The translations under genes were made by a program, and so were the position numbers. Shown piece by piece: positions 6,801 through 51,370 of a stretch of DNA of 64,000 bases; position 1 is the first letter of the stretch, and the number at the start of each line of letters is the position of its first letter. The stretch comes from Adhaeribacter swui (GTDB taxonomy: Bacteria; Bacteroidota; Bacteroidia; Cytophagales; Hymenobacteraceae). Location of the stretch: the NCBI RefSeq assembly GCF_014217805.1, contig NZ_CP055156.1, forward strand, positions 372,001 through 436,000, read 5' to 3'. The notes below the pieces were generated by a model, which was not told the origin of the DNA, did no database searches, and saw only the letters and a program-made list of their open reading frames with translations.

Positions 6801-6959
6801 ATTTTAAGAATTATTTGTTCTGATGAAGATTCCTGCTTTTGCTCCTTACTTGCTGCTATTGCTGCCAATTTTTAAAATTTTACCAAAAGCACCAATTAAA
6901 ACCAGAAGATAAAACGAACCCCTACCTGTAGGAATGAAGCCATAAAATAATTGCCTGCT

Positions 6960-7454
6960 ATGAAAACCTTATACCTGCTACGCCACGCCAAATCGAGTTG
7001 GGAATTTGAGGAATTAAGCGATCACGACCGGCCCTTAAACAAACGGGGCCGGCACGATGCGCCTTTAATGGGCCGGGAATTAGCTTCGCACGAAATTAGT
7101 CTGGATTTAATTGTTTCTAGTTCGGCGGTGCGGGCGCTTACTACAGCCTCGCTGGTGGCCAAAGAACTGGAGTACGACACCGAAGAAATTGTTATAAACG
7201 AAGGTATTTACGAAGCCGATACGCCGGGGCTTTTAACCATTATTAAACAAACGCCCGATAACCTGGATACCGTAATGCTGGTGGGTCACAATCCGGAAAT
7301 TACCGAATTAGCCAATCTTTTATCGCCCGAACACCTTGCCAGTATGCCTACCGCAGCAGTGGTGGGCCTGCGGTTTAACTGCGAAGCCTGGGCCGAAATC
7401 AGTCAGGAAAACGCGGCGTTGGTACTCTACGATTTTCCGAAAAACCACATATAA
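6960..7454 (+). CDS. sixA: Histidine phosphatase family protein, SixA-like
   Basis: This 164-residue protein belongs to the small RHG-type histidine phosphatases of the SixA group, which remove phosphate from phosphohistidine proteins. MKTLYLLRHAKSSW places the catalytic Arg8-His9 at the N-terminus, and VGHNPEITELA supplies the second conserved His. I chose the ATG at 6960: a TTG nine bases upstream would add three residues before the first strand and is unlikely. It sits between hflX and ppk1 on the same strand with 77 bp to ppk1; association of a phosphohistidine phosphatase with polyphosphate genes is common in bacteria. The actual substrate is unknown. Confidence 0.87.
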   Translation: MKTLYLLRHAKSSWEFEELSDHDRPLNKRGRHDAPLMGRELASHEISLDLIVSSSAVRALTTASLVAKELEYDTEEIVINEGIYEADTPGLLTIIKQTPDNLDTVMLVGHNPEITELANLLSPEHLASMPTAAVVGLRFNCEAWAEISQENAALVLYDFPKNHI

Positions 7455-7531: not shown

Positions 7532-9598
7532 ATGGAAAAAAATAAAAAAATTTTGAGCCGAGAACTAAGCTGGCTGGCTTTTAACCACCGGGTATTACAA
7601 GAAGCCCAAGATATTACCGTGCCTTTATTGGAACGCATCCAGTTTATGGCCATATTTTCTTCGAACCTCGACGAGTATTTTAAAGTACGCGTAGCCACGC
7701 TCAAACGCCTGATTCAGTTTAAGAAAAGCGATCGCCAAAAATTAACCCAGGACCCCAGCGAAGAACTAGACCAGGTTTTAACCGAAGTAGCCCACCAGCA
7801 AGAAGAATTAGGAGAAACGTTCCGGAACCAGATTGTACCGGCCTTACAAGCCGAAAAGATTTTTATTATCAACGAAAAAACCATCAAGCCTGATCAGGAA
7901 GAATTTGTGCGGGATTACTTTACCCGGAAAGTACAGCCTTTACTCGCCCCGGTAATACTCACATCCGATATAAATTTCCTTTTTTTAAAAGACCAGGTAC
8001 TTTACTTATTAATTGAGCTTACCAAACCGAAGCAACCCGCTGCCACGGCCATTTTGGAGGTACCCACCAAGCAACACGGGGGTCGGTTTGTAAAATTACC
8101 AACAAGCCATAAAGAGCGCTTTGTTTTATTTCTGGATGATGTAATCCGGTACAATTTAGCGCAACTGTTTCCGGATTATAAGGTAGCCAAAGCCTACGCC
8201 ATAAAAATTTCGCGCGACGCCGAGCTGGACATTGAAGAAGAAGTGTCGGATAATTTAATGGCTAAAATTAAGCGCAGCTTAAAAAAACGCGAAACCGGTT
8301 ATCCTTCGCGGTTGCTCTACGACAGCACCATGCCAAAAAACTTGCAGGATACCATTTGCCGGTTAATAGGCGTTACGTCCGAAGAATTAATAAAAGGCAG
8401 CCGCTACCATAATTTTCGGGACTTTTTTGGCTTTCCGGATTTTGATTTGCCCCATTTAAAATACCCGCCGCAGCCCACCTTGGCACACCCACAGCTGCAC
8501 GGGATTAAAAAATTATTCCCGCTAATTCGCCAGCAAGATTTCCTGGTGCATTACCCGTATCAGTCGTTTGATTACGTATTGCAGTTTCTAAACGAAGCCG
8601 CCAAAGATCCGGCGGTTACTACGGTTAGTGTAACCTTGTACCGGGTAGCCGATAAATCAAAAGTAGCCAAAGCGCTGGTAAAGGCCGCTAAACGAGGCAA
8701 AAGAGTAACCGCCGTCATTGAGCTAAAAGCTCGCTTCGATGAAGAATCGAACATTTACTGGGCACGCAAGCTGGAAAAAGCCGGTGCCACCGTAGTGGTG
8801 GGTTTACCGGGTTATAAAGTTCATAGCAAATTATGTTTAATAACCCGGCAAGAGAAAAACGGCCCGGTGCAATACGCGTATTTAAGTACCGGTAATTTTA
8901 ACGAAAAAACTTCGCGCATTTACGCCGACCACGGTTTATTTACCAGCGACACGCGCTTAACCAAAGAAGTAGAAAGCGTATTTCAGTATTTACTGGACCG
9001 CAACCCCGAAAACAAACAATTCCGGCATTTGCTGGTGGCTCCCTTTAACATGCGCGCCCGCTTCATTCAATCTATTAACCAGGAAATTAGGAATGCGAAG
9101 AAAGGATTGCCCGCCTACATTATAGCCAAGATGAACTCCCTGCAGGACGAGGCCATGATCTTAAAACTGTACGAAGCCAGTGCTGCCGGCGTGCGCGTGG
9201 ATTTGATTGTGCGGGGAATTTGCTGTTTAAACCCGGGAGTAAAAAATTTAAGCGAAAACATTACCGTGCGCAGCATTGTTGACCGTTACCTGGAGCACGC
9301 CCGGGTATTTATCTTTGCGAATAACGGCGAAGAAAAAATGTACATTTCCTCGGCCGATTGGATGACGCGTAATTTAAGCCGCCGGGTAGAAGTAGGATTT
9401 CCTATTTTCGATAACGTTTTGCAGCAAGAAATCCGGCACTTGATTGACTTGCAACTGCAGGATAACGTAAAAGCCCGCAATCCCAAAAATCAATACCTGG
9501 GTTCCGGGGCTTCCGCCGAAACCCGTTCGCAGTACACCACCTATACCTACCTGGAAAAATTAGAAGAACAAATTCCACCTCCTTCTAAATCAAAGTAA
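7532..9598 (+). CDS. ppk1: Polyphosphate kinase 1
   Basis: PPK1 reversibly makes long-chain polyphosphate from ATP. The 688-residue protein has the N-terminal domain (SRELSWLAFNHRVLQEA), the central domain and two phospholipase-D-like C-terminal domains. The autophosphorylated histidine is His431 in GYKVHSKL and the second conserved histidine is His589 in RYLEHARVF; both match the expected positions in the family (His435 and His592 in E. coli). Conserved segments VTLYRVADKSKV and STGNFNEKTSRIYADHG are present. Length is normal. The upstream sixA may be co-transcribed. No ppx is present in the window. Confidence 0.97.
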   Translation: MEKNKKILSRELSWLAFNHRVLQEAQDITVPLLERIQFMAIFSSNLDEYFKVRVATLKRLIQFKKSDRQKLTQDPSEELDQVLTEVAHQQEELGETFRNQIVPALQAEKIFIINEKTIKPDQEEFVRDYFTRKVQPLLAPVILTSDINFLFLKDQVLYLLIELTKPKQPAATAILEVPTKQHGGRFVKLPTSHKERFVLFLDDVIRYNLAQLFPDYKVAKAYAIKISRDAELDIEEEVSDNLMAKIKRSLKKRETGYPSRLLYDSTMPKNLQDTICRLIGVTSEELIKGSRYHNFRDFFGFPDFDLPHLKYPPQPTLAHPQLHGIKKLFPLIRQQDFLVHYPYQSFDYVLQFLNEAAKDPAVTTVSVTLYRVADKSKVAKALVKAAKRGKRVTAVIELKARFDEESNIYWARKLEKAGATVVVGLPGYKVHSKLCLITRQEKNGPVQYAYLSTGNFNEKTSRIYADHGLFTSDTRLTKEVESVFQYLLDRNPENKQFRHLLVAPFNMRARFIQSINQEIRNAKKGLPAYIIAKMNSLQDEAMILKLYEASAAGVRVDLIVRGICCLNPGVKNLSENITVRSIVDRYLEHARVFIFANNGEEKMYISSADWMTRNLSRRVEVGFPIFDNVLQQEIRHLIDLQLQDNVKARNPKNQYLGSGASAETRSQYTTYTYLEKLEEQIPPPSKSK

Positions 9599-11031: not shown

Positions 11032-14000
11032 TCAAAACAAAAAGCCGTAAGTTAAATTAAAATAATGGGCTTCGCCGCCGATGGAGTAGGTGCCGGAAAA
11101 CACGGCTTTGTTTAAAATATCAACCCAGGCGCCTACCCCGTAGCCGTAGTGCAAACCCCGGAATAATTTGTTGGAAGCATCGTTATCTGCGAAAACCCGG
11201 CCGGTATCGTAAAACAACAGCGTACCAAATTTTCCCGGGAACAAGTACAAATTAAACCGGAACAATTGAATACGCGCCTCGGCGTTGGCATACACGGTGC
11301 TGCGGCCGGCAAAACGCGTACGGTTAAAGCCGCGCAGGTTGGTAGTGCCCCCCAAGGTGTTAGCCTGGTAAAACCGGTAATCGCCGAAATTATGCGCCGC
11401 GCCTAACCGCCCTGCCCAGGTAAGCTGAAACGGAAAATCCGGGGTGAGATAAAAGACTACCTGAGAATTCACATTGGTATAGCGCAATTGGTTGCGCCCC
11501 AGCTCACGGTTAAAACTTACTTCGTTTAAAAACTTTATGCCGATGTAGGGGTTAACCGGATTACTAACAGCCTCCAGATTTAGAAATAAGCGTAAACCCA
11601 GGTAATCGTTCTTATCAAAAGCACCTTGTACTTCGGCGTTGGTTTGCACTAACTGCCGCGCTTGCTGCCCCGAAGCGGCCGAATCAATCCGGAAATGATC
11701 GTATTGCGGACCAATCCCAAATTTTAAAAAACTAAATATATTTTTGTTGATGGTAGGCGAAAAATACAGACGGGAGAACCGCACCCGGTAATCTTTTACT
11801 TGATCTAAATCGGCCGGCGTCTTGTTGCCTTCGCCAAAAAAGTTATACAGTAACTGAGGGCCGTACACATAAGCCTGCAATCCTACATCGTACTGCGAGA
11901 AAACAGCTTTAAAATCGCCATCATAGCGCACATTATACGCCGCCCGGGCAAAAGAATAATTTGCTCCTACCCGGTGCTCGGTAGCGTACGGTTCTTTCCG
12001 GAATTTATGTGTGCGGTAAATTAAACCAGCTCCTATAAAAAATTTATCGTCGGGGTTATAGGCAAACGAAAGCCGGGGGCCGATGTAAGGCGTTTGCTGC
12101 TCCGTGCGGTCGTAGCGGTTTACTTCTTTGTAGTTTTTGGTTTCGTTTTTAGTTTCGGGGCCAAAATTAAAGTAATTGCCGGCTTTAGTATCGTAAACCA
12201 GGGTTTTACGGACTAAGCCGCTTACCACGGAGTTATCCGTTATCGAGTCACAGTCGCTGCCGCCAATTATGCGTACCCGAATACCTTTTTGCACCTGTCC
12301 GTTTACTTTAAACACATCGTCGCCGCCCAAGCCATACAAGCGAATTTCTTTGGTTTCGTTAGTATTAAAAGTACGATCGTATACCAGCCGACCAATGGTT
12401 CCGTTTTTACGAATATTATTTACAATTACCTGGGTTTGGTCATTATTTAAGCGGTTCACGATAAAGCGTTCGCGTTTATCGCTGCCGGCTACATCTACGG
12501 TTCTGGCCAAAAATGCGTAATAAACGGCGGCCAGTTGAGGCAGTAAATCGCGGCGGGATTTGAGCTTGGCAGCAATTTCGGCACCGGATAGTTTTGCTAT
12601 TTCGGCGGGCCATTGCGCTACGGCTTGTTCAATTACGGCATCGGTTACGTTTTTTTTAATTTTTTCGGCTTCGGCCAGCCATTGTTCTTTAGTTACTGAG
12701 GCTAAAAAAGTACGATCAGCACTTTGGGCCGTTAAATTCAACCCGATGTAATCCTTATAAGTGTAATCAAAATTTTGGATATTTCGGACAGCCCACTTCC
12801 GGGTAATAAGGTAAGGAATAAAACCATCAGCTTTGAAAAACACCACATCCCGGTCTTTAGGTACCGGTTCAAAAATTCGTTCGCCATCGCCTTTACGTTC
12901 TACCCAGCGCCACTGGCCTTCGTGCCGGTCCCAGTCGCCGATGAGCATATCAAACAAGCGGGCGCGGGCAAAACTTACTTCATCCACGGTATTGTCATTA
13001 TCCTGTTGCTTGCGTTCGAGCACTTTATCGGTGCCCACCAGATTTTTAGCGTAACCTAAACTAGCCACGTTGCGGTGGTCTTCGTCAGGATTTTCTTCCA
13101 AAATTGCTACCTGGTTTTTAAAATTTTCCAGGTATTTACCCAGCAAGGGATCGTCGGGTACGTACACTAATTTCGGGTTAACGTGGTATACGCTAGCTGC
13201 TTCGGCCAGAACGGGTAAAATTAAGGCGCCGTACGGGTGTTGCGCCGAAATTTGATCTTGCAGCACATCGCGGACTAAGGTTTGGCGCATGCTGCTGGGC
13301 AAGATTTGCGCAGGATTTTTGTTAACTGACCGCAACGAAAATTCCCGGCCGGCCTCGTTGCGTAGCCGCAAAGAAGCGGTTTGCTTGCCGCCACCTAAGC
13401 GGTACGGTATCAGGCCGTTTTGTTCGGTTTGCAAATCCAACAAGGGCATTTTTACGGGGGTAGCCCACTCCTGCCGGTAATGTGTTCCTAATAAAAATTG
13501 CTTGGTTTGGCCAGCGCCGTACAGTTTGGGATTAGCTGCTATGGTAATGCTGCTATCTTTAAAACTAGGTCGGGCCACCACATTTTCAACTGGTTTTAGA
13601 GGAGCAGCATCTTGTTGCTGGTACAGCTTGGTGCGGTACATGAGCTGGCCTTGGTTGCCGTTGCCTTGGGGTTCCCAGAACTCGAGCCAGGATTCGCCGT
13701 TGGTGTAATAATTTACGATGGCGTAGCCTTTGGCTTCGTGCCCGAATTGGGCATTGCCGCCGCCTAGTTTCAAGTATTGGGTTTTACAGCCCGAGCCACT
13801 CACGATGGTGTGCACATTGCCGTTTTTAAAATGCTGCAAATTATGTTCGTGCCCGGCGGCATACACCACGTTGGGGTATTTTTTAAAAATTTCCATTAAA
13901 CCGTTCGCGTAAGCCTGGTATTTGGGGTAAGAAATATCCTGACTAATGCCGCCGTAGCGCCGGGCCCAAGGGTAAATAGACCCAACCACCGGCATCGGAA

Positions 14001-14808
14001 TGAACAAATACGGATTTAATTCTAACAGCGGAAAAATATGGTCGAGCACCCGGAAATTGCCGCCGTGAACACCATTACTTTGCAGCGGATGGTGGCCCAC
14101 TACCATAATGTTTTTGCCGCTGTTGCGATTGATAATGTCTTCCAGTTGCACCAGGACTTCGGCTTCGTCGGCTACGTTGCAGTAATTGTTAGGGCCGTAA
14201 GGGCGTTCTTCGGTTTGCAGCCACCACTGCGAGTTTAAGGCGATAAGCACTAAATTTTCCTGTAAAAAAACTTCGTACGGACCGGGGCAACCTTCGTCGG
14301 GCACAAAAAAATTACCGCCACTCACAAACGTAGAATCTTTCAGGTATTCTTCTACATATACTTCTTGCCGGATTACCGATTGCAGTCCGCCGGGCCGGCC
14401 CTGGGCCCAATCGTGGTTGCCCGGAATCATATACTTTTCGCCACGGTAGCCTTGCAAAATATCCAGTTGGGTGCGGATGCGTTCTTCATCGGTTTTGCGG
14501 CCGGGGCTACCGGGTTCGGTAAGGCCATACGAGTAAATATTATCGCCCAAAAAAACCACGGCACTTTTTTCGCCGGCTGCCTGCAATTGCGCACGCAACA
14601 GGTTTAACGACGGTTCCAGCGGGTTTTTAGCGGGAGCACCTACATCGCCGATTAAGAAAATAGAATAAGCCAGTTGGTTAGCCGGCGGCGGGGTGTTTTG
14701 CTGCCAATTGGCTGCTTCGCGGTTATAATAAGGTTTATGAACAGTACAAGAAGGTACAAGAAAAAGCGTAAGCCAGCAAAAAAGAACACCTGTAATAATT
14801 TTACTCAT
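11032..14808 (-). CDS. Metallophosphoesterase lipoprotein fused to a kinase-like region and a BamA/TamA-type outer-membrane barrel
   Basis: The 1258-residue protein starts with a lipoprotein signal ending LVPSC (lipidated Cys21). Residues about 48-330 form a calcineurin-like phosphoesterase: GDVG at 54-57, FLGDN, GNHDW at 130-134, GHHPLQS and GHEHN carry the metal ligands. The middle region (about 520-780) is not phosphatase and contains FDMLIGDWDRHEGQWRW, with Asp627-Arg628-His629, followed by EPVPKDRDVVFF; this resembles the catalytic loop of HipA/FAM20-like atypical kinases (inference). From about 930 to the C-terminal Phe it is a 16-strand-like BamA/surface-antigen barrel with LGGTTNLRGFNRTRFAG, the family's conserved xRGF motif. 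It is probably an outer-membrane protein with an enzymatic head. Substrate is unknown. It is the only minus-strand gene here and is divergent from the HD-PycTM gene. Confidence 0.85.
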   Translation of the reverse strand: MSKIITGVLFCWLTLFLVPSCTVHKPYYNREAANWQQNTPPPANQLAYSIFLIGDVGAPAKNPLEPSLNLLRAQLQAAGEKSAVVFLGDNIYSYGLTEPGSPGRKTDEERIRTQLDILQGYRGEKYMIPGNHDWAQGRPGGLQSVIRQEVYVEEYLKDSTFVSGGNFFVPDEGCPGPYEVFLQENLVLIALNSQWWLQTEERPYGPNNYCNVADEAEVLVQLEDIINRNSGKNIMVVGHHPLQSNGVHGGNFRVLDHIFPLLELNPYLFIPMPVVGSIYPWARRYGGISQDISYPKYQAYANGLMEIFKKYPNVVYAAGHEHNLQHFKNGNVHTIVSGSGCKTQYLKLGGGNAQFGHEAKGYAIVNYYTNGESWLEFWEPQGNGNQGQLMYRTKLYQQQDAAPLKPVENVVARPSFKDSSITIAANPKLYGAGQTKQFLLGTHYRQEWATPVKMPLLDLQTEQNGLIPYRLGGGKQTASLRLRNEAGREFSLRSVNKNPAQILPSSMRQTLVRDVLQDQISAQHPYGALILPVLAEAASVYHVNPKLVYVPDDPLLGKYLENFKNQVAILEENPDEDHRNVASLGYAKNLVGTDKVLERKQQDNDNTVDEVSFARARLFDMLIGDWDRHEGQWRWVERKGDGERIFEPVPKDRDVVFFKADGFIPYLITRKWAVRNIQNFDYTYKDYIGLNLTAQSADRTFLASVTKEQWLAEAEKIKKNVTDAVIEQAVAQWPAEIAKLSGAEIAAKLKSRRDLLPQLAAVYYAFLARTVDVAGSDKRERFIVNRLNNDQTQVIVNNIRKNGTIGRLVYDRTFNTNETKEIRLYGLGGDDVFKVNGQVQKGIRVRIIGGSDCDSITDNSVVSGLVRKTLVYDTKAGNYFNFGPETKNETKNYKEVNRYDRTEQQTPYIGPRLSFAYNPDDKFFIGAGLIYRTHKFRKEPYATEHRVGANYSFARAAYNVRYDGDFKAVFSQYDVGLQAYVYGPQLLYNFFGEGNKTPADLDQVKDYRVRFSRLYFSPTINKNIFSFLKFGIGPQYDHFRIDSAASGQQARQLVQTNAEVQGAFDKNDYLGLRLFLNLEAVSNPVNPYIGIKFLNEVSFNRELGRNQLRYTNVNSQVVFYLTPDFPFQLTWAGRLGAAHNFGDYRFYQANTLGGTTNLRGFNRTRFAGRSTVYANAEARIQLFRFNLYLFPGKFGTLLFYDTGRVFADNDASNKLFRGLHYGYGVGAWVDILNKAVFSGTYSIGGEAHYFNLTYGFLF

Positions 14809-15196: not shown

Positions 15197-16405
15197 ATGG
15201 AAACATCACTGCTTATAAATAAAGAACAAGAAATTATATTAAAGGCGAGGCAATACGTACAAACGCTTTTTACAGATAAATTATCTAAAAAATACGTTTA
15301 CCACAATTACCGCCATACGCTTGAAATTTCGCAGGAAGCCAGCCTTTTAGCGGACGATTACCAGTTACCGGAATCAGAAAAAGAAATTTTGCTTTTGGCA
15401 GCTTGGTTTCACGATACCGGCTACACCGAAACCTACCAGGGCCACGAAGACCGGAGCGCCGAAATAGCCACTGCTTTTTTACAACAACAAAACTACCCGG
15501 CCGCCCAAATACAGCGGGTAAAAGCGTGTATTCTAGCTACCAAAGCGGGCAGCCAACCGGCCAGTTTACTCGAAGAAATTCTAGCCGATGCCGATATTTC
15601 GAACATCGGGAAAAAGACTTTTTTCCCGAATGCCGAGCTGCTGCGGGCCGAATGGGAGATTTTTTTAAATAAATTTTATACCGATGCCGAGTGGGCGCAA
15701 TACCAACTGGATTTTTTAGAAGCTACTCAATTTAAAACCGAAGCCGCCCAGCGTCGCTATAATTACCAGTTAGCCCAAAACTTAATTGAACAGCAAAATA
15801 TTTTAACGGAAAGCGCGAAAAAAGAAAAAAAGGCCGAAAAAAAGAAACGAAAAACTTACGCGCAACCCAAACGGGGTATCGAAACTATGTTTCAGAGCAC
15901 CTACAGCAACCACATGAATTTGAGCTCTATTGCCGATAATAAAGCCAATATGATGATTAGCTTAAACGCGATTATTATGTCGGTGATTATTACGTATCTG
16001 GGCGCTAAAACCTCCGTAATTGGTACCGAGTTTACCCGTAATCCTATTCTGATGATTCCGGTGGGTATTCTATTGTTAACCACGTTGGGTTCGGTAGTTT
16101 CGGCTATTATGTCGGCGCAGCCAGAGGTTACCAGTTTTAACATTAAACCCAGCAAAGTGCAAAGCAAAAAAGTGAACCTGCTGTTTTTTGGTAATTTCAC
16201 CAAATTACCTTTAGAAGATTTTCAGGCAGGCATGTACGAGATTATGCGCGAAAAAGACGCTTTGTACACCAACATGATTACAGATATTTATTACCTCGGC
16301 GATGTTTTGGCCAAGAAATACCGGTTACTCCGCATCTCCTACACCATTTTTATGATTGGTTTAATCTTAACCGTAATTGCTTTTGTGATTGCGATTAGCC
16401 GCTAA
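15197..16405 (+). CDS. HD-domain phosphohydrolase fused to a Pycsar-effector-like transmembrane domain (PycTM/DUF5706)
   Basis: The 402-residue protein has an N-terminal HD domain: His40 (NYRHTLEI), His72-Asp73 (AAWFHDTGY), His83 (QGHEDRS) and Asp131/Asp133 (LADADISNIG) are the expected metal ligands of a phosphohydrolase. A lysine-rich linker at about 206-226 follows. Residues 232-402 match the Pycsar effector TM family: SNHMNLSSIADNKANMMISLNAII, membrane helices at about 252-270 and 283-306, a cytoplasmic stretch, and a last helix at about 378-400. In Pycsar defence, PycTM proteins are activated by cyclic pyrimidine nucleotides and damage the membrane. No cyclase gene is in the window, so a defence role here is not shown; HD-PycTM proteins also occur outside defence loci in Bacteroidota. 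Confidence 0.85.
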   Translation: METSLLINKEQEIILKARQYVQTLFTDKLSKKYVYHNYRHTLEISQEASLLADDYQLPESEKEILLLAAWFHDTGYTETYQGHEDRSAEIATAFLQQQNYPAAQIQRVKACILATKAGSQPASLLEEILADADISNIGKKTFFPNAELLRAEWEIFLNKFYTDAEWAQYQLDFLEATQFKTEAAQRRYNYQLAQNLIEQQNILTESAKKEKKAEKKKRKTYAQPKRGIETMFQSTYSNHMNLSSIADNKANMMISLNAIIMSVIITYLGAKTSVIGTEFTRNPILMIPVGILLLTTLGSVVSAIMSAQPEVTSFNIKPSKVQSKKVNLLFFGNFTKLPLEDFQAGMYEIMREKDALYTNMITDIYYLGDVLAKKYRLLRISYTIFMIGLILTVIAFVIAISR

Positions 16406-16511: not shown

Positions 16512-16991
16512 TTATTTCTTCTCTTTAGCAGCTTGCTTTTTGTCGGCCAGCATTTGTTCGCGTTCTTTTTGTTTTTGTTCCAGAGCTTCCTCGCGGGCTT
16601 CGGCTTTTGCTTCGTCGGCTTCTTTGGCTAGTTTTGCTTTGTCTTTAGCGGCAGCTTCTTTTTCTTTAGCCAGTTGTTTTTGTTGATCTTCTTTGGCTTC
16701 CTGCGCTTCTTTGCGGGCTTTTTCTTTAGCCTTTAAAGCATCTTCGCGTTCTTCGTTTTTCGCCGCTAAGGCTTTGGCTTTAACTTTATCGGCATCCTTT
16801 TTTTCGGCGGCGCGCGTTTTAGCCAGTTCTTTTTTCTCTTTTTCTTTTTGTTTGGCAGCTTCTTCTTTGGCCTTTAATGCTTCTTTGCGCGCCCGCTCTT
16901 TTTCTTTGGCCGAGTCTTGGGCCAAAGCCGGATTAAAGGTAAACACCAGCGTTAATAAAGTTAAAATAGTTAATCTGTAGAGGTGTCGCAT
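16512..16991 (-). CDS. Secreted Lys/Glu/Ala-rich coiled-coil protein
   Basis: The 159-residue protein has a signal peptide (residues 1-24, ending NPALAQ) and then an uninterrupted charged helix built almost only from Lys, Glu, Ala, Asp, Arg and Gln, with imperfect repeats of the AKEEAKQKEKE and EAREEALEQKQKE kind. No catalytic motif or domain is visible. It is likely a periplasmic single long alpha-helix or coiled coil. Function is unknown. It could have a structural or spacer role. The ORF on the opposite strand here (16693-16980) is a shadow of this low-complexity sequence. Confidence 0.75.
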   Translation of the reverse strand: MRHLYRLTILTLLTLVFTFNPALAQDSAKEKERARKEALKAKEEAAKQKEKEKKELAKTRAAEKKDADKVKAKALAAKNEEREDALKAKEKARKEAQEAKEDQQKQLAKEKEAAAKDKAKLAKEADEAKAEAREEALEQKQKEREQMLADKKQAAKEKK

Positions 16992-44077: not shown

Positions 44078-47000
44078 TTGAATACAAGTACACATCACGT
44101 AATTATTGCGTCTGTTGCGGTTGTTACTATGTTTGGCTGGCTTTCTGAGGCCGGAACATTAACCGGGGGTAGCGCTTTAAATATTAATGCGCTCCGCAGT
44201 TTAGTAGTTGATACCGTTATTACCGATACCACCACCAGCGAAGGCTATCGGAAATCCAGACGTCCCGACTTTCGGCCGAAAGATCGAGTAGGTGACCCAT
44301 TTTCTAATCGGACATCCCGCTCTCCTATGTTGCTTAAAAATCCGGATAATGTTGACTTGAACGTTGACTTGGACGATAGCTTGAAATATTTTGAAATTAA
44401 GGAGAAAGTAGGCGATCTGAATTTTCGAAATCCTACAATAATGACGTACGAAGAGTACACCAAATTTCAACAGCAACAAGCCATCCGGAATTATTGGCGG
44501 AGCAAAGCCGAGGGAGGTGTAACCGGAGAAAAAGCTTCTGGGCGTTCTTTACTGAGCCCTAAAATACCTGTAGTTAGCCCCTTGTTCGATCGTATTTTTG
44601 GTGGCAACTTTGTCGATATTCAAACAAATGGAAATGCCGGATTAAAATTTGGCGCCCGGTTTAACCGTAACTTTAACCAATCGCTCCCGCTGCGCCGGCA
44701 ACGGACTGGCGACTTTGAATTTGATCAAAATTTAGCTATTAACGTAACCGGCCGGATTGGTGAAAAACTTAAACTTAATTTTAACTGGGATACCAAAGCT
44801 AACTTTGAGTTTGAGAATAACATTAAAATGGATTATACCGGCTATGAGGAAGAAATTATCCGGAAGATTGAAGCTGGTAACGTTAGTTTGCCTTTAAATA
44901 ACAGTTTGGTTACTGGTGCCCAAAACTTGTTTGGGGTAAAGGCCCAGTTACAGTTCGGTAAATTAGGGGTAACCACGGTTATGTCGAATGTGCGGGGCCG
45001 CACGGATCAGATTAATATTCAGAATGGAGCACAGAACCGGCCTTTTGAAATAAAAATAGACCAATACGAGCGCGACCGGCATTATTTTTTGTCGCAGTTT
45101 TTCCGCGACCGTTATGATCGTTCTTTGCGCGATTTACCCCAACTTAAATCCGGTATTACCATCCGGCGGCTTGAAGTTTACATCACCAACGATAACCGGC
45201 AAACCGAAAACCTGCGCAACGTAGTAACCTTAATGGACTTAGCGGAGGCTGATACTGCTAAAATTTACCGGGATGTATTTGCTAAAACTGGCACTGCGCC
45301 AACGGTACCTGCCAGTAACGATGCTAATACTTTGTTTAGCCGAATAAGTAATTTCCGGGATAATAATACCGTAGACGAGCAATTACAAAGTTTAACTCCA
45401 GGATTTCAAAAAAACGTAGACTTTGAGCACGTTCGGGCCCGGCGTTTAGATCCGAAGGAATATAATTTTAGCCCGGAGTTAGGTTACATCTCCCTGAATA
45501 TACAAATGCTGCCCGAGCAGGTATTGGGCGTAGCTTACGAATACACCTATAATGGCCGCGTGTACCGGGTAGGCGAATTGCAGGACGATTACCAGAACGT
45601 TGGTGATAATCAAGTGATTTTTTTAAAAATGCTCAAATCTACCAATCCAGCTTTAGGGTTGCCGACCTGGGATTTGATGATGAAAAACGTGTATTCGCTG
45701 AATGCCAACCAGGTAACCCGCGAAGGATTTCAGTTGAAAATTATCTACAAAGACGATGAGACTGGCGTAGATATTACCAGCTTAAAAGAAGGTCAAAATA
45801 TTAAAGACGTTCCGCTAGTTGAAGTTTTTAATCTGGATAAAGTAAATACCAATAATGACGCCCCCGCCGATGGGAACTTCGACTTTTTAACCGGTTTAAC
45901 CATCGACCCCGAAAATGGCCGCATTTACTTTCCCGAAGTAGAACCCTTTGGCTCTTACCTGCAAAGTAAGTTTGCACCCGGCGAAGAAAATATAGCTCAG
46001 AAGTACGTGTTTCAGGAGTTGTATGAACAAACTCAAAGTGATGCGCAGCAAGTTACCAGTAAAGCTAAGTTTTTCCTGAAAGGACGCTACCAAGCCAGTT
46101 CCACCGACGAAATTGCTTTGCCCGGCATTCAGGTAGCTGAAGGTTCGGTTCGGGTACGGTCCGGAGGAAATTTGCTAACCGAAGGGGTTGATTACCGGGT
46201 AGATTATGCTTTGGCCCGCGTCAAAATTTTAAATCCAAGCTATCTAAATTCGGCGAGCAACCTGAGCGTAGAATTTGAGAAAGCCGAGATAATTAACCCG
46301 CAACCGCGGGCATTGGTTGGTACCCGCCTAGATTATGCTTTAAACCGGGATATTGGTTTAGGAGCCACCATCTTACATCTCGGCGAAACTCCTTACAATA
46401 ACAACCGGGTAAGCCTCGGCGACGAACCTTCTAACAATACCATCTACGGGTTAGATATAAATTTAAAAAAAGAATCGCGCCTATTAACTACCCTTACCGA
46501 CAAACTCCCTTTTATTGAAACCAAAGAGCCTTCGGCTTTTGCTTTCAACGCCGAGTTTGCGCAACTACTACCCGCTAAAGCAAAATTAAAAGGCGAAGAT
46601 GGGGTTTCTTACATCGATGATTTTGAAGGGGCCGAGTCTTCTTACTCTTTATCCAGCAGCAGTAACACGAATAACTGGCGTTTGGCAGCCACGCCGGCTC
46701 CCTTAATTAATGGCCGAACTGGTCTGGCTTATGCCAATAACCGGGCACACCTGGCTTGGTATACGATTGACCAAGGCGTATATTACCGTAACGGACCGCA
46801 GCATCCAAGAAACATTTCGGACGCCGATTTGCGAAACCATTATATCCGGGGTATTAACCGGAAAGAAATATTCCCGAACCGCGATTTAGATGCGGTAAAC
46901 AACTACGAATATCCTTTCGACATAGCCTTTTATCCTGCCGAGCGGGGGCAGTATAACTACAACCAAGGCGTAAGCGCTGACGGTAAATTTCTGCCGAACC

Positions 47001-50000
47001 GGAATAACCCGGTTGATAACTGGGGCGGTATTAGCCGCGAAATAACCTTTGATACCGATTTTGATAATGCTAATATTGAGTATCTGGAATTCTGGATGAT
47101 GGATCCATTCCTGAAAGTAACAAACCCCAATACGCAACTAGCAGATATTAACGATGATGAAGGCACAAATTCAAGAGCCAATACCACCGGAGGTGAATTA
47201 ATATTTAACTTAGGAAACGTATCGGAAGATTTATTAAAAGATCAAAACCGCTACGAGTTCGAAAACGGATTACCAACCGAAAATTTTACCGGTAATATTG
47301 CCACTACACCCAAACCCGATACGGACCGCACTCCCTGGGGAGTAGTAACGCGGCGGCAGTTTTTAACCGATGCTTTTGATAATACTTCTGGTAGCCGCCA
47401 GTTTCAGGATATAGGTTTAGAAGGACTAAACGACACTGAAGAAAAACAATTTTTTGCTGGGGTATACCAACAATTAGCTGACCCCTCGAACGATAATTTT
47501 AAACACCATTTAAATCAGGATTATGATAACCGCAATGTTAAAGTACTTGGCCGGTACAAATACTTTAACGGTATGGAAGGTAACTCTGTTGAAAACAGCG
47601 TAGAAGCCGCCTACCCTTACCCGGATAAAGAAGATTTAAATAAAGATAATATTGTATCGGATGTAGAACGCTACTACGAATACAAAATTGATTTACGCCC
47701 GGGCAAATTAGAAGTAGGCCAAAACTACATTGTAGACAGGGTGGATACCACCGTAAGCGGCGATAAAGTTTCCTGGTATTTATTCCGGATTCCGGTTCGC
47801 CAACCTACCGGCAACGTTAATAACATGCAGGGCTTTAAATCTATCCGGTTTATGCGCATGTACTTAACTCAGTTTCAGGAACCAGTAGTACTCCGTACAG
47901 TACAGATGCAATTTGTATCCAATCAATGGCGTAAATACTTGGGTTCTGTGTCGGAAGGAGGAGTACCATGTACCGGCAATTGCGATACCGATGTAGATAA
48001 TTTTACTGTTTCTACGGTAAACCTCGAAGAAAACGGCGAAGCGGATCCGGGTAATATTAAATACGTGATACCACCAGGTATTTATCGCCAGTTTGATAAC
48101 TCTTCGGTTACTACCCGCCGGCAAAACGAACAATCGCTGCAAATTTGCGTGGATAACTTAAAAGACTCTTTTGGTAAAGCCGTTTACAAAAACGTTACCA
48201 TGGATATGCTTATTTATAAACGTTTAAAGTTATTCATACATGCGCAAAGCTTAAACGGCAGCACCCGCGACGACGAAGTAAGGGCCTTTATCCGGATTGG
48301 TACTGATTACACGCAAAACTACTACGAATACTCTTTACCTTTAAAAATTACCCGGAATGGGGAAATCAACGAGCAGGAAATCTGGAAGGTAGAGAATATG
48401 ATTGATGTAGCCTTTCAGGATTTTATTAACGCGAAATCTGCCCGCAACCAGGCCCAGGCCAGTATTTTGCAACCATACAAAGTAGATCTAGAAAATGGTC
48501 GTCAGATAGTAGTAGTGGGTAACCCGGATTTTAGTTCGGTGCAAGGCATTATGATGGGCGTTCTTAACCCAAGATCTCCCGATCGGGCCGATAAATCGTT
48601 TTGTATCTGGGCTGATGAATTGCGCGTAGCTGATTTTGATAAGAAAGCCGGTTGGGCGGCAAATGCCCGCGCCAATTTAAAATTAGCCGATTTAGCTAAT
48701 ATCTCGGCAACCGGTTCGTATACTACCGTTGGCTTTGGTGGTTTGCAGGAAAAAATTGCGCAACGGGCCCGGGCTAATACCGCTCAGTTTGATGTAAATG
48801 CCAATATTGCGGCAGATAAATTCTTACCCGAAAATTTAGGCATTCGCATTCCGGTTGCTGTGCAGTACGGCAAGGCCACCCAGGAACCGCGCTACGATCC
48901 CTTAGATCCGGATACGCCCCTGGAGCAATCTTTAAAGAAGTTTGCCAACGATAAGGACCGACAGGAATACCGGAAAGAAGTTATTAATCAAACTACAACC
49001 AAAAGTTTTAACTTACTAAATGTCCGGAAAGAGAAAACCGATCCGGACTCTAAATCTCGCCCGTACGATATCGAGAACCTGTCGCTTTCTTATGCTTACA
49101 GCGAACTGTTGCATACAGATATATTCACGGATCGGGATTTAACTAAAACGTATACCGGCGGTTTGGCTTACGCCTTTAATGGTGCGCCTAAAAACTATAC
49201 TCCGCTAAGTAAAGTGGCGGCCTTAAAATCGCCGTATTTAAAATTCTTACAAGAATTTAACTTTACTCCGTTACCGAGCCGGGTTGCTTTCCGGGCCGAC
49301 TTAGACCGGCGGTATAACGAATTGTTCCTGCAGCGCCGTCTTAACCCAAATGAAACGCCGGTACCCTTAGATCCGAAATATGCCACTTTTCAGAAGACTT
49401 TTTTCTTTAACCGGGTTTATGATATTAAATGGGATTTAACCAAAAGCTTATCTTTTGATTATACTGCCACTAACCGCTCGGTGGTAGATGAGCCGGATGG
49501 CAGAATTAACCGCCACGATGAAGACCCGTTAGTCCGGGAAAGAAGTAACGAAATTTGGCGCAATCTTTATAAAGGTGGCCGTACCACCAACTTTGATCAA
49601 TCAGCAGCCGTAACTTACCGCTTGCCACTCGATAAATTTCCGTTAACTGACTGGGTTAGCGCTGATGTACGTTACGCGGCCGGATATACCTGGACATCAG
49701 GATCTACCGTATTGTTGAGCGATTCGCTCGGTTTAGGTAATACCATCCAGAATAACAGCGATGCCAGTGCTACTGGTAAAGTAGATTTATTACGCTTGTA
49801 CAATAAGGTAAAATTCTTAAAAGCAATTAACGAAGCTACGCCCAACGCCGGTGCCCGCCCACCACAACCAGCAGCACCAGGCACAGAGGCCGCGCAAGAT
49901 ACTACCGAGAAAAAGCCCGAGCTAAGGGCCTTAAAAGCAACGCTTAAAGTATTAATGGCTGTGCAATCCGTTAATTTTACTTACCAGTTAACGCGAGGCA

Positions 50001-51370
50001 ATTTAGTGCCGGGCTATCTACCTAAATCTAAATTCCTGGGCTTCGACGAAGGTTTTAATGCTCCGGGCTTGCCTTTTATTTTAGGTAAGCAATTTGAGTT
50101 AAGTGATTTGTATGATCTTATTTACCGGAACGGTTGGTATACCCAAAACAGTCATTTATTAAACACGGCGTTTAGCGGCTTACGAACCGAAAATTTCTCG
50201 GCCCGGACCAATGTGGTACCTTTTAAAAACTTTAACATCCAGGTAGAAGCTCGCCGGGAACGTTCGGATATTGAAGAAGCTTTTTATCGCTTATCCGTTG
50301 ATGAAGCCACCGGAGAGCCAATTAGTACCACCCCAGAATTGCAGAACCCCTACCACACTGGTTCTTTTAGCACTTCCATTATATCGTTAGGTACCATGTT
50401 CGAAAGCAAACGGGGCAATAGCTCGCAGGCATTTGATAATTTTATAAAATACCGGTCTACTATTGCGCCCCGGTTAGGTGCCGCCAACCCCGATAAAACG
50501 GGTACTTACACCAAAAATTCGCAGGATGTTTTAATACCGGCTTTTATATATGCTTATACTGGTAAGGATATTAACACGTATGATCCAACAACCAAAGCAG
50601 GCCGGTCTACCAATTTGTTTAAAAGCATTCCGTTGCCCAACTGGCGTTTAGATTATAATGGCTTAGCAGAACTGCCATTTATTAAACAGTATTTTAGCTC
50701 GTTTACCTTGGCGCACGCTTACAGCTCGGTGTATAGCATTAACAACTTTGCTACTTCGCTTAAATACAACACCGAGCCAGAATCCGGTTTCTCAACGGTT
50801 AAAAACGAGCGAAATGAGTTTGAGCCGTATTACGTTATTAGTCAATTAACAATCATGGAGCGCTTAACTCCTTTGTTGGGTATTAATTTTAAAACCCAGA
50901 AAAATGTAATTGGCCGCTTAGAATATCGCACCGAACGCAACCTGGCCTTGAATATGGCTACCAATGCCCAGGTTACCGAAGTGGGTATCAGAGATTACGT
51001 AATAGGCTTAGGTTATGCTACCACTAACTTCCGGGTTCCTTTTAAAATCAACGGCGAACGCATTGTTCTTAAAAATGAGTTAAATGCCCGCTTTGACTTT
51101 ACTTTACGCGATAACATCACTATTCAACGTTCCATAATTAGCGATACTACGGGTACTGGTGGCGGCTTTGAATTAGAGCGTAGCTTAAACGAACCCACCA
51201 ATGGCACCAAGCAAATTCAAATTAAACCAACCATTGATTATACGGTAAATCAAAAATTAAACATCCAGTTTTATTTTACCAGGGTAGTATCGGAACCTAA
51301 AATATCCAGTTCGTTTAAAAATACAGTTTCGGAAGGTGGCATTCAGTTACGTTACAGCTTGTCGCAATAA
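44078..51370 (+). CDS. sprA: Type IX secretion/gliding translocon protein SprA (Sov)
   Basis: SprA is the outer-membrane translocon of the type IX secretion system: a very large beta-barrel through which cargo exits. The 2430-residue protein begins with TTG (44078), has an N-terminal signal (VIIASVAVVTMFGWLSEAG) and carries the SprA-type N-terminal module: RNYWRSKAEGG, GLKFGARFNRNFNQSLPLRRQ, and LKLNFNWDTKANFEFENNIK. A repeat of this type of segment and long stretches of alternating beta-strand follow. The C-terminal barrel region is rich in aromatic end residues. It follows ruvA by 21 bp and is followed by gcvH; this ruvA-sprA-gcvH order is known from Flavobacterium. Length is within the family's typical 2,300-2,500 residues. 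Confidence 0.95.
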   Translation: MNTSTHHVIIASVAVVTMFGWLSEAGTLTGGSALNINALRSLVVDTVITDTTTSEGYRKSRRPDFRPKDRVGDPFSNRTSRSPMLLKNPDNVDLNVDLDDSLKYFEIKEKVGDLNFRNPTIMTYEEYTKFQQQQAIRNYWRSKAEGGVTGEKASGRSLLSPKIPVVSPLFDRIFGGNFVDIQTNGNAGLKFGARFNRNFNQSLPLRRQRTGDFEFDQNLAINVTGRIGEKLKLNFNWDTKANFEFENNIKMDYTGYEEEIIRKIEAGNVSLPLNNSLVTGAQNLFGVKAQLQFGKLGVTTVMSNVRGRTDQINIQNGAQNRPFEIKIDQYERDRHYFLSQFFRDRYDRSLRDLPQLKSGITIRRLEVYITNDNRQTENLRNVVTLMDLAEADTAKIYRDVFAKTGTAPTVPASNDANTLFSRISNFRDNNTVDEQLQSLTPGFQKNVDFEHVRARRLDPKEYNFSPELGYISLNIQMLPEQVLGVAYEYTYNGRVYRVGELQDDYQNVGDNQVIFLKMLKSTNPALGLPTWDLMMKNVYSLNANQVTREGFQLKIIYKDDETGVDITSLKEGQNIKDVPLVEVFNLDKVNTNNDAPADGNFDFLTGLTIDPENGRIYFPEVEPFGSYLQSKFAPGEENIAQKYVFQELYEQTQSDAQQVTSKAKFFLKGRYQASSTDEIALPGIQVAEGSVRVRSGGNLLTEGVDYRVDYALARVKILNPSYLNSASNLSVEFEKAEIINPQPRALVGTRLDYALNRDIGLGATILHLGETPYNNNRVSLGDEPSNNTIYGLDINLKKESRLLTTLTDKLPFIETKEPSAFAFNAEFAQLLPAKAKLKGEDGVSYIDDFEGAESSYSLSSSSNTNNWRLAATPAPLINGRTGLAYANNRAHLAWYTIDQGVYYRNGPQHPRNISDADLRNHYIRGINRKEIFPNRDLDAVNNYEYPFDIAFYPAERGQYNYNQGVSADGKFLPNRNNPVDNWGGISREITFDTDFDNANIEYLEFWMMDPFLKVTNPNTQLADINDDEGTNSRANTTGGELIFNLGNVSEDLLKDQNRYEFENGLPTENFTGNIATTPKPDTDRTPWGVVTRRQFLTDAFDNTSGSRQFQDIGLEGLNDTEEKQFFAGVYQQLADPSNDNFKHHLNQDYDNRNVKVLGRYKYFNGMEGNSVENSVEAAYPYPDKEDLNKDNIVSDVERYYEYKIDLRPGKLEVGQNYIVDRVDTTVSGDKVSWYLFRIPVRQPTGNVNNMQGFKSIRFMRMYLTQFQEPVVLRTVQMQFVSNQWRKYLGSVSEGGVPCTGNCDTDVDNFTVSTVNLEENGEADPGNIKYVIPPGIYRQFDNSSVTTRRQNEQSLQICVDNLKDSFGKAVYKNVTMDMLIYKRLKLFIHAQSLNGSTRDDEVRAFIRIGTDYTQNYYEYSLPLKITRNGEINEQEIWKVENMIDVAFQDFINAKSARNQAQASILQPYKVDLENGRQIVVVGNPDFSSVQGIMMGVLNPRSPDRADKSFCIWADELRVADFDKKAGWAANARANLKLADLANISATGSYTTVGFGGLQEKIAQRARANTAQFDVNANIAADKFLPENLGIRIPVAVQYGKATQEPRYDPLDPDTPLEQSLKKFANDKDRQEYRKEVINQTTTKSFNLLNVRKEKTDPDSKSRPYDIENLSLSYAYSELLHTDIFTDRDLTKTYTGGLAYAFNGAPKNYTPLSKVAALKSPYLKFLQEFNFTPLPSRVAFRADLDRRYNELFLQRRLNPNETPVPLDPKYATFQKTFFFNRVYDIKWDLTKSLSFDYTATNRSVVDEPDGRINRHDEDPLVRERSNEIWRNLYKGGRTTNFDQSAAVTYRLPLDKFPLTDWVSADVRYAAGYTWTSGSTVLLSDSLGLGNTIQNNSDASATGKVDLLRLYNKVKFLKAINEATPNAGARPPQPAAPGTEAAQDTTEKKPELRALKATLKVLMAVQSVNFTYQLTRGNLVPGYLPKSKFLGFDEGFNAPGLPFILGKQFELSDLYDLIYRNGWYTQNSHLLNTAFSGLRTENFSARTNVVPFKNFNIQVEARRERSDIEEAFYRLSVDEATGEPISTTPELQNPYHTGSFSTSIISLGTMFESKRGNSSQAFDNFIKYRSTIAPRLGAANPDKTGTYTKNSQDVLIPAFIYAYTGKDINTYDPTTKAGRSTNLFKSIPLPNWRLDYNGLAELPFIKQYFSSFTLAHAYSSVYSINNFATSLKYNTEPESGFSTVKNERNEFEPYYVISQLTIMERLTPLLGINFKTQKNVIGRLEYRTERNLALNMATNAQVTEVGIRDYVIGLGYATTNFRVPFKINGERIVLKNELNARFDFTLRDNITIQRSIISDTTGTGGGFELERSLNEPTNGTKQIQIKPTIDYTVNQKLNIQFYFTRVVSEPKISSSFKNTVSEGGIQLRYSLSQ

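Follow-up and report, generated by a model that had tools for sequence, protein, structure and literature searches.

The 64,000-nucleotide stretch of the Adhaeribacter swui genome analysed here (contig NZ_CP055156.1, positions 372,001 to 436,000; called the window below) contains at positions 11032–14808, on the reverse strand, an open reading frame (ORF) for a protein of 1258 amino acids (aa), in which an export signal is followed in order by a phosphatase, a domain with a predicted protein-kinase-like (PKL) fold, a beta linker and an Omp85 barrel. Based upon the predicted fold of the central domain, the conservation of its residues, the layout of the domains, the occurrence of the different parts both apart and together and the linkage to other genes, all of which were computed here, we consider, with a probability of roughly 55%, that this is an exported two-enzyme protein anchored in the outer membrane, whose phosphatase and PKL-fold transferase would both lie in the periplasm and act upon an envelope substrate. 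A first-pass annotation made from the sequence of this DNA had described the same single chain without giving its strand, and had proposed a kinase-like centre between a phosphatase and a BamA-type barrel. The chain is confirmed by the ORF, and its features are as follows.

11032..14808, (-): whole gene, 1258 aa, a single uninterrupted ORF
14746..14808, (-): signal peptide, residues 1–21, ending at Cys21 (from the sequence)
13624..14691, (-): calcineurin-like metallophosphoesterase, residues ~40–395 (PF00149, residues 50–255, E 5e-8)
12502..13590, (-): predicted PKL domain, residues ~407–769 (model and kinase-fold matches)
13318..13320, (-): Lys497, candidate nucleotide-binding lysine (86/90 relatives)
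12922..12930, (-): Asp627-Arg628-His629 (DRH), candidate catalytic loop (82/90, 88/90 and 77/90 relatives)
12853..12855, (-): Asp652 of KDRD, candidate metal-binding aspartate (82/90 relatives)
12142..12501, (-): all-beta linker, residues ~770–889 (second model)
11047..12087, (-): predicted 16-strand Omp85 barrel, residues ~908–1254 (model and VIA-align)

The sequence GDWDRHEGQWRW spans residues 624–635 and KDRD residues 651–654, and the DRH motif is where it had been placed earlier. Within the searches made, the protein represents an undescribed PKL family and a new architecture assembled from known parts. For its centre, Pfam and NCBIfam gave nothing besides a propeller hit at chance level (residues 382–465, E 0.088), and single-protein sequence searches of the PDB gave only weak matches at chance level (mS27, eS6, HDAC6 and others). 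The combination of phosphatase, PKL domain and barrel is absent from both Pfam and NCBIfam, which agrees with the earlier statement that it is not a named family. No paper describing it was found, which is weak evidence of absence as subscription papers lay mostly outside the coverage; the accessible passages without such an architecture include those of PMC9758233, PMC8115612, PMC7821199, PMC10281475 and PMC5449189, and neither "phosph" nor "kinase" occurs in the accessible text of an Omp85 survey (PMC4104836).

Predicted fold and conserved residues of the central domain

The central domain was modelled by AlphaFold2 (residues 407–805) using an alignment with 80 relatives, and this first model (predicted local distance difference test, pLDDT, 83.9; predicted template modelling score, pTM, 0.85) has the two-lobed kinase fold of the PKL superfamily. 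When it was compared with the PDB by Foldseek, 458 matches were obtained at E ≤ 10, and the five with E ≤ 0.001 consisted of four chains of CtkA from Helicobacter pylori (PDB 3akj, 3akk, 3akl; best match, E 2.5e-5) and of HipT (E 4.5e-4); the secretory kinase Fam20C was matched at E 0.023. The best 50 of the 458 matches are kinase-fold proteins, most of them so named by title, and MSMEG_1954, Rv3197, CylM, YihE, Tra1 and a pre-40S chain among them are taken by us to have this fold. In VIA-align, where a Z of 7–8 is according to the tool typical for models lacking a clear Foldseek match, the highest score among the matches listed was for PI4K II alpha (4pla; Z 13.7, 254 residues, 4.5 Å), and CotH (5jda; Z 13.4, 256 residues, 4.3 Å), CtkA (3akk; Z 13.4, 238 residues, 4.5 Å), HipA (4pu3; Z 11.2, 212 residues, 4.0 Å) and a Golgi casein kinase of the Fam20 type (4kqa; Z 10.3, 238 residues, 6.3 Å) were also matched. 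The order of elements in the model is likewise that of a kinase, with a helix at model positions 204–217, the DRH loop, two strands and then KDRD. The centre is predicted with confidence to fold as a PKL domain near PI4K, CotH, CtkA, HipA and Fam20C, in line with the kinase-like character first proposed for it.

Among these proteins, CtkA is a stand-alone kinase that, unlike the window protein, has no phosphatase or barrel, and PI4K II alpha, despite its highest listed Z, is a eukaryotic lipid kinase with 10% identity. HipA and HipT are cytoplasmic toxin kinases with a DNA-binding partner, whereas Fam20C, which has a DRH loop, is secretory. CotH is encoded by a separate gene in the same genomes as the PKL family described here, and it is placed with Fam20C among secretory-type relatives in the accessible part of PMC7821199. 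The KINtaro resource, as described in the accessible part of PMC10870513, comprises 72 PKL families.

For the analysis of conservation, 174 distinct ORFs were matched, three scoring ≤ 72 were dropped, and the 171 others were aligned and reduced to 90 relatives at 75% identity. In addition to the residues listed above, Asp518 (84/90), Glu571 (88/90), Arg617 (89/90), Asp620 (89/90), Asp625 (88/90) and Gln632 (84/90) are highly conserved, and Lys497, Asp627 and Asp652 are jointly kept in 77 of the 90 relatives. A conserved lysine, a putative catalytic aspartate and a putative metal-binding aspartate are thus present in the order that is correct for PKL proteins, and due to this conservation the domain is likely to be catalytically competent. 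Of the two outcomes that had been named beforehand as fatal to the kinase proposal, viz. a non-kinase fold or an unconserved DRH motif, neither was observed, and the second aspartate has proved to be conserved as well.

A sequence profile was also constructed from 66 of the 90 relatives; the sequences excluded from it were the 13 whose motifs are lost, eight near-duplicates from Hymenobacteraceae and three more. Among PDB sequences the profile matched CtkA best (E 0.039, which alone is not significant), with DRH aligned on DRH and the second aspartate one residue out of step. Pfam CotH (PF08757) was matched in three of the 66 members (best E 0.016; none above the cut-off among the matches listed) and Pfam Fam20C (PF06702) in one member at E 0.001, a value comparable to those for the unrelated DUF1598 (0.0016) and Dna2 (0.0014). 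HipA (PF07804) was not matched in the window protein and is not one of the 25 families listed for the 66 members, and an NCBIfam scan of these members gave nothing kinase-like. The hhalign comparisons to CotH (E 0.0035) and HipA (E 0.15), for which alignments were built in this analysis, are not regarded as evidence, since these values do not improve on those of the controls (0.0016 for the barrel part, 0.15 for the phosphatase part, 0.31 and 0.13 for the reversed domain), although both alignments include the catalytic loop; in the same test CotH against HipA gave E 0.00011.

Phosphatase, barrel and the architectures of relatives

The phosphatase assigned by the first-pass annotation is present, with a PF00149 match above the cut-off and with metal ligands of the calcineurin-like metallophosphoesterases, each of the eight metal-site residues being kept in 43–47 of the 48 non-redundant full-length relatives. 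Of 123 full-length proteins in all, seven are without two or more of these residues. These counts are based upon the alignment, which replaced a regular-expression count that was too strict. A sequence search of the PDB at E 0.001 gave no match for the domain, and its motifs are presumably of the TRAP/ACP5-like type. It resembles other calcineurin-like phosphoesterases in the family match and metal residues and differs from them in its fusion to a kinase fold and a barrel. A Riemerella metallophosphoesterase (Niu et al., 2021), found among the type IX secretion system effectors in a review table (PMC10202324), was considered as a member of the family and dropped, since a metallophosphoesterase of that species is given as 68 kDa in a table of PMC6549377, which is too small.

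The C-terminus matched NCBIfam NF047779 (Omp85_fam) with E 1.2e-19 and 71 bits, below the cut-off of 200, and Pfam ShlB also below the cut-off. A second model, of residues 407–1258 (78 relatives, two truncated ones having been dropped; pLDDT 84.2, pTM 0.78), shows the kinase part followed by a linker, all beta and about 120 residues long, and then by 16 long strands (counted by hand). In VIA-align the barrel matched those of BamA, TamA and Sam50, with Z from 21.5 to 25.3 (the latter for BamA) among the matches listed. The sequence NLRGF (residues 1157–1161) lies between strands 11 and 12, and RG[YFW] is found within the last 260 residues in 146 of the 154 barrel-bearing relatives. The predicted 16-strand barrel with an RG[F/Y] motif in loop 6 is that of the Omp85 superfamily, and the barrel of the earlier proposal is therefore retained. 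The designation "BamA-type" is too narrow, as no POTRA domain was found by Pfam in the window protein or in the second model; although the 16-strand barrel is shared with BamA, TamA and Sam50, enzyme domains and a beta linker here take the place of POTRA. The linker (residues 770–889) has GGDD-like turns, and its front part seems to be retained in kinase-only proteins.

With a query of 406 aa, the PKL domain was detected in 112 of 296 sampled Bacteroidota genomes, A. swui among them, which represent 62 of 140 genera. Together with the conservation of Asp627, Arg628 and Asp652, this occurrence shows that the domain is no product of chance. A scan of GTDB contigs gave 312 stretches encoding it, and the best 80 of these, which were kept, are all from five genera close to the window's own (Adhaeribacter, Sabulibacter, Rufibacter, Pontibacter and Hymenobacter). 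Five PLSDB records (three from Hymenobacter and one each from Persicobacter and Parabacteroides) also contain it; no dedicated search outside Bacteroidota was made. Six matches were obtained in the A. swui genome (6.2 Mb, 3 contigs); besides the window protein they represent four paralogues, of which one accounts for two matches. In paralogue L002 (with L006; 1197 aa) the phosphatase residues are degenerate and the kinase motifs intact, whereas in L003 (1256 aa) GDWGRQ and PRARD replace the kinase motifs and the phosphatase residues are damaged. L004 is by Pfam a phosphatase alone (399 aa). L005 (404 aa), whose gene lies on the strand opposite to L002 at a distance of about 0.9 kb, consists of the central domain alone, preceded by a single hydrophobic helix at the N-terminus; this indicates that the central region is an independent domain.

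The 90 relatives comprise 48 phosphatase–kinase–barrel, 30 kinase–barrel and 12 kinase-only proteins. On a tree of 89 of them (L095 left out), in which several long branches, mostly of kinase-dead sequences, make the details unsure, the architectures need 9 changes as against 35 in shuffles, and hence the parts have been gained or lost several times. In two genomes of one genus (loci L119 and L120), adjacent genes on the same strand encode the kinase, the phosphatase and the barrel; the kinase and phosphatase proteins each have a lipobox-like N-terminus, and Pfam confirms the phosphatase and the separate Omp85 barrel gene in L120. The fusion of the three parts in one lineage and their clustering in another support the view that they form one functional module. 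Clusters of kinase-only paralogues were also observed (L118, 2126–7151, three genes; L117, 1433–4778, two genes), where one copy has Ser for the catalytic Asp, resulting in an active–inactive pairing.

Gene neighbourhood

Three neighbours of the gene in the window are of interest here.

15197..16405, (+): HD domain with a C-terminal PycTM (Pycsar effector) membrane domain, divergent neighbour (Pfam)
7532..9598, (+): polyphosphate kinase 1, PPK1 (Pfam)
6951..7454, (+): histidine phosphatase family (PF00300), presumably SixA-like

In the 80 Hymenobacteraceae loci (flanks up to 5 kb), which are from close relatives where synteny is expected, HD-PycTM is present in all 80 and PPK1 in 64, and another 90 loci, whose flanks are short, contain them in 18 and 9 cases, respectively. 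In addition, 40 wide loci were hand-picked from 16 other families to cover genera; they are 19.9 kb long except for two that are shorter. HD-PycTM is the commonest neighbour in these (28/40, 10 of 16 families), and they also contain a GAF-domain protein (15/40, 5 families), an SdiA-regulated propeller (13/40, 7 families; 11 directly adjoin the target in the same orientation), PPK1 (8/40, 4 families), the SixA-like protein (6/40, 2 families) and CotH (3/40, 1 family). The HD-PycTM label denotes similarity to the whole HD-PycTM protein of the window, to which the A. swui genome has two further, shorter matches. Its gene occurs in same-strand, divergent and convergent layouts, in 3 of the 28 cases four to nine genes away. 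By our estimate, the chance of one given gene lying within 20 kb in a genome of 3–5 Mb is under 1%. As the linkage spans families in changed layouts, it suggests a shared role with the linked genes, perhaps in phosphate or polyphosphate metabolism.

In three of the five loci of one family (f16), namely L200, L203 and L204, a CotH kinase gene is found at a distance of two or three genes from that of the target, so that two different PKL families adjoin, and in L203 the CotH gene is followed by a PAP2 phosphatase. Elsewhere, the window encodes a 2430-aa SprA (44078–51370, (+); PF14349, gliding motility/type IX secretion) and a 159-aa protein (16512–16991, (-)) with a signal peptide followed mostly by Lys, Ala and Glu and no Pfam family.

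Cellular location, proposed activity and alternatives

The lipobox of the window protein, LVPSC, is atypical due to its Pro; its relatives carry a lipobox (e.g., LSAC or IAGC), a signal peptide, which in Hymenobacter is a plain one, or an N-terminal membrane helix. In 170 of the 171 proteins the N-terminus includes a strongly hydrophobic segment, the exception being a truncated ORF. Only hydrophobicity was used in this count, since the lipobox labels cannot be relied upon, some of them lying within signal peptides of Hymenobacter, and ORFs were started at the first possible start codon, as a result of which some N-termini are too long. The kinase-only L005 and the proteins L122–L126 of family f7 have N-terminal basic residues and one hydrophobic helix, a layout that, judged from sequence, would be that of proteins anchored in the inner membrane whose domain projects into the periplasm. 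The segment that precedes strand 1 of Omp85 proteins is periplasmic. Based upon this topology and the layout of the kinase-only relatives, both enzyme domains are probably on the periplasmic side. The first-pass annotation had instead called the protein surface-tethered. The barrel superfamily includes translocators and Bacteroidota place many lipoproteins on their surface, but enzymes facing the cell exterior are very improbable in view of the Omp85 topology and of the N-terminal helix of kinase-only relatives, which would leave the domain in the periplasm; furthermore, the TVHKP that follows Cys21 is without the acidic signal that we take to direct surface export.

In the mechanism that we propose, the Omp85 barrel would anchor the protein in the outer membrane with both enzyme domains probably facing the periplasm. 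The PKL domain would most likely be a transferase of the PI4K/HipA/CotH/CtkA/Fam20 kind, in which Lys497 would bind the donor, Asp627 would be catalytic and Gln632 together with Asp652 would hold the metal, and it would move phosphate to an envelope substrate, which we would guess to be a protein or an outer-membrane sugar or lipid. The metal-dependent phosphatase might dephosphorylate this substrate or one related to it, the opposing roles of the two enzymes being likewise a guess.

A number of observations weigh against this two-enzyme reading. ATP is not expected in the periplasm, and the sequence profiles give no significant link to any known kinase family. At the position where the PKL family described here has Gln, CtkA has Asn. 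One or more of Lys497, Asp627 and Asp652 is missing in 13 of the 90 relatives (ten kinase–barrel, two kinase-only and one full-length; four are from one genus, of family f17), and the paralogue L003 is without two of these three residues; due to these losses, part of the family appears to have a non-catalytic role. Linkage also falls well short of universal, as 12 of the 40 wide loci are without HD-PycTM, 32 are without PPK1, and 16 belong to f7 or f16 or are without any linked gene. The lost residues, the replacement of Asn by Gln and the expected lack of periplasmic ATP would all suit a pseudokinase, whose role would be to bind a ligand or partner and to control the phosphatase or the barrel, with no transfer. 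However, all three residues are kept in 77 of 90 relatives across all three architectures and the kinase-only proteins have no phosphatase or barrel in their chain to regulate, and we consider this explanation unlikely.

It is possible, if on balance doubtful, that the domain carries out a different PKL reaction, such as AMPylation or glutamylation, or acts on a small molecule, sugar or lipid rather than on protein. PKL families with such reactions exist (accessible part of PMC10870513) and the best listed fold match is a lipid kinase, while nothing specific speaks against it; a common fold does not reveal the substrate. The linkage of PPK1 in the Hymenobacteraceae loci, and in 4 of the 16 other families, would also fit an enzyme of polyphosphate turnover whose PKL domain uses or senses polyphosphate. 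This is quite improbable, as HD-PycTM is the commoner neighbour and most wide loci are without PPK1; in addition, PPK1 is cytoplasmic as far as known, and the use of polyphosphate is not known to us for any PKL enzyme. Returning to the two-enzyme reading, the gene linkage suggests polyphosphate as a candidate donor, and a tentative and rather improbable extension is that a periplasmic kinase of Bacteroidota draws on a donor other than cytosolic ATP and, with its own phosphatase on the same barrel, would make phosphorylation at the outer membrane reversible.

If the PKL domain is active, the protein would constitute a kinase–phosphatase pair outside the bacterial cytoplasm, for which the question of the phosphate donor would become directly testable, and its kinase-only relatives are convenient targets for assays and crystallography. 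The results add to the PKL superfamily an unannotated family that is common in one phylum and is built, together with a phosphatase, into an outer-membrane protein.

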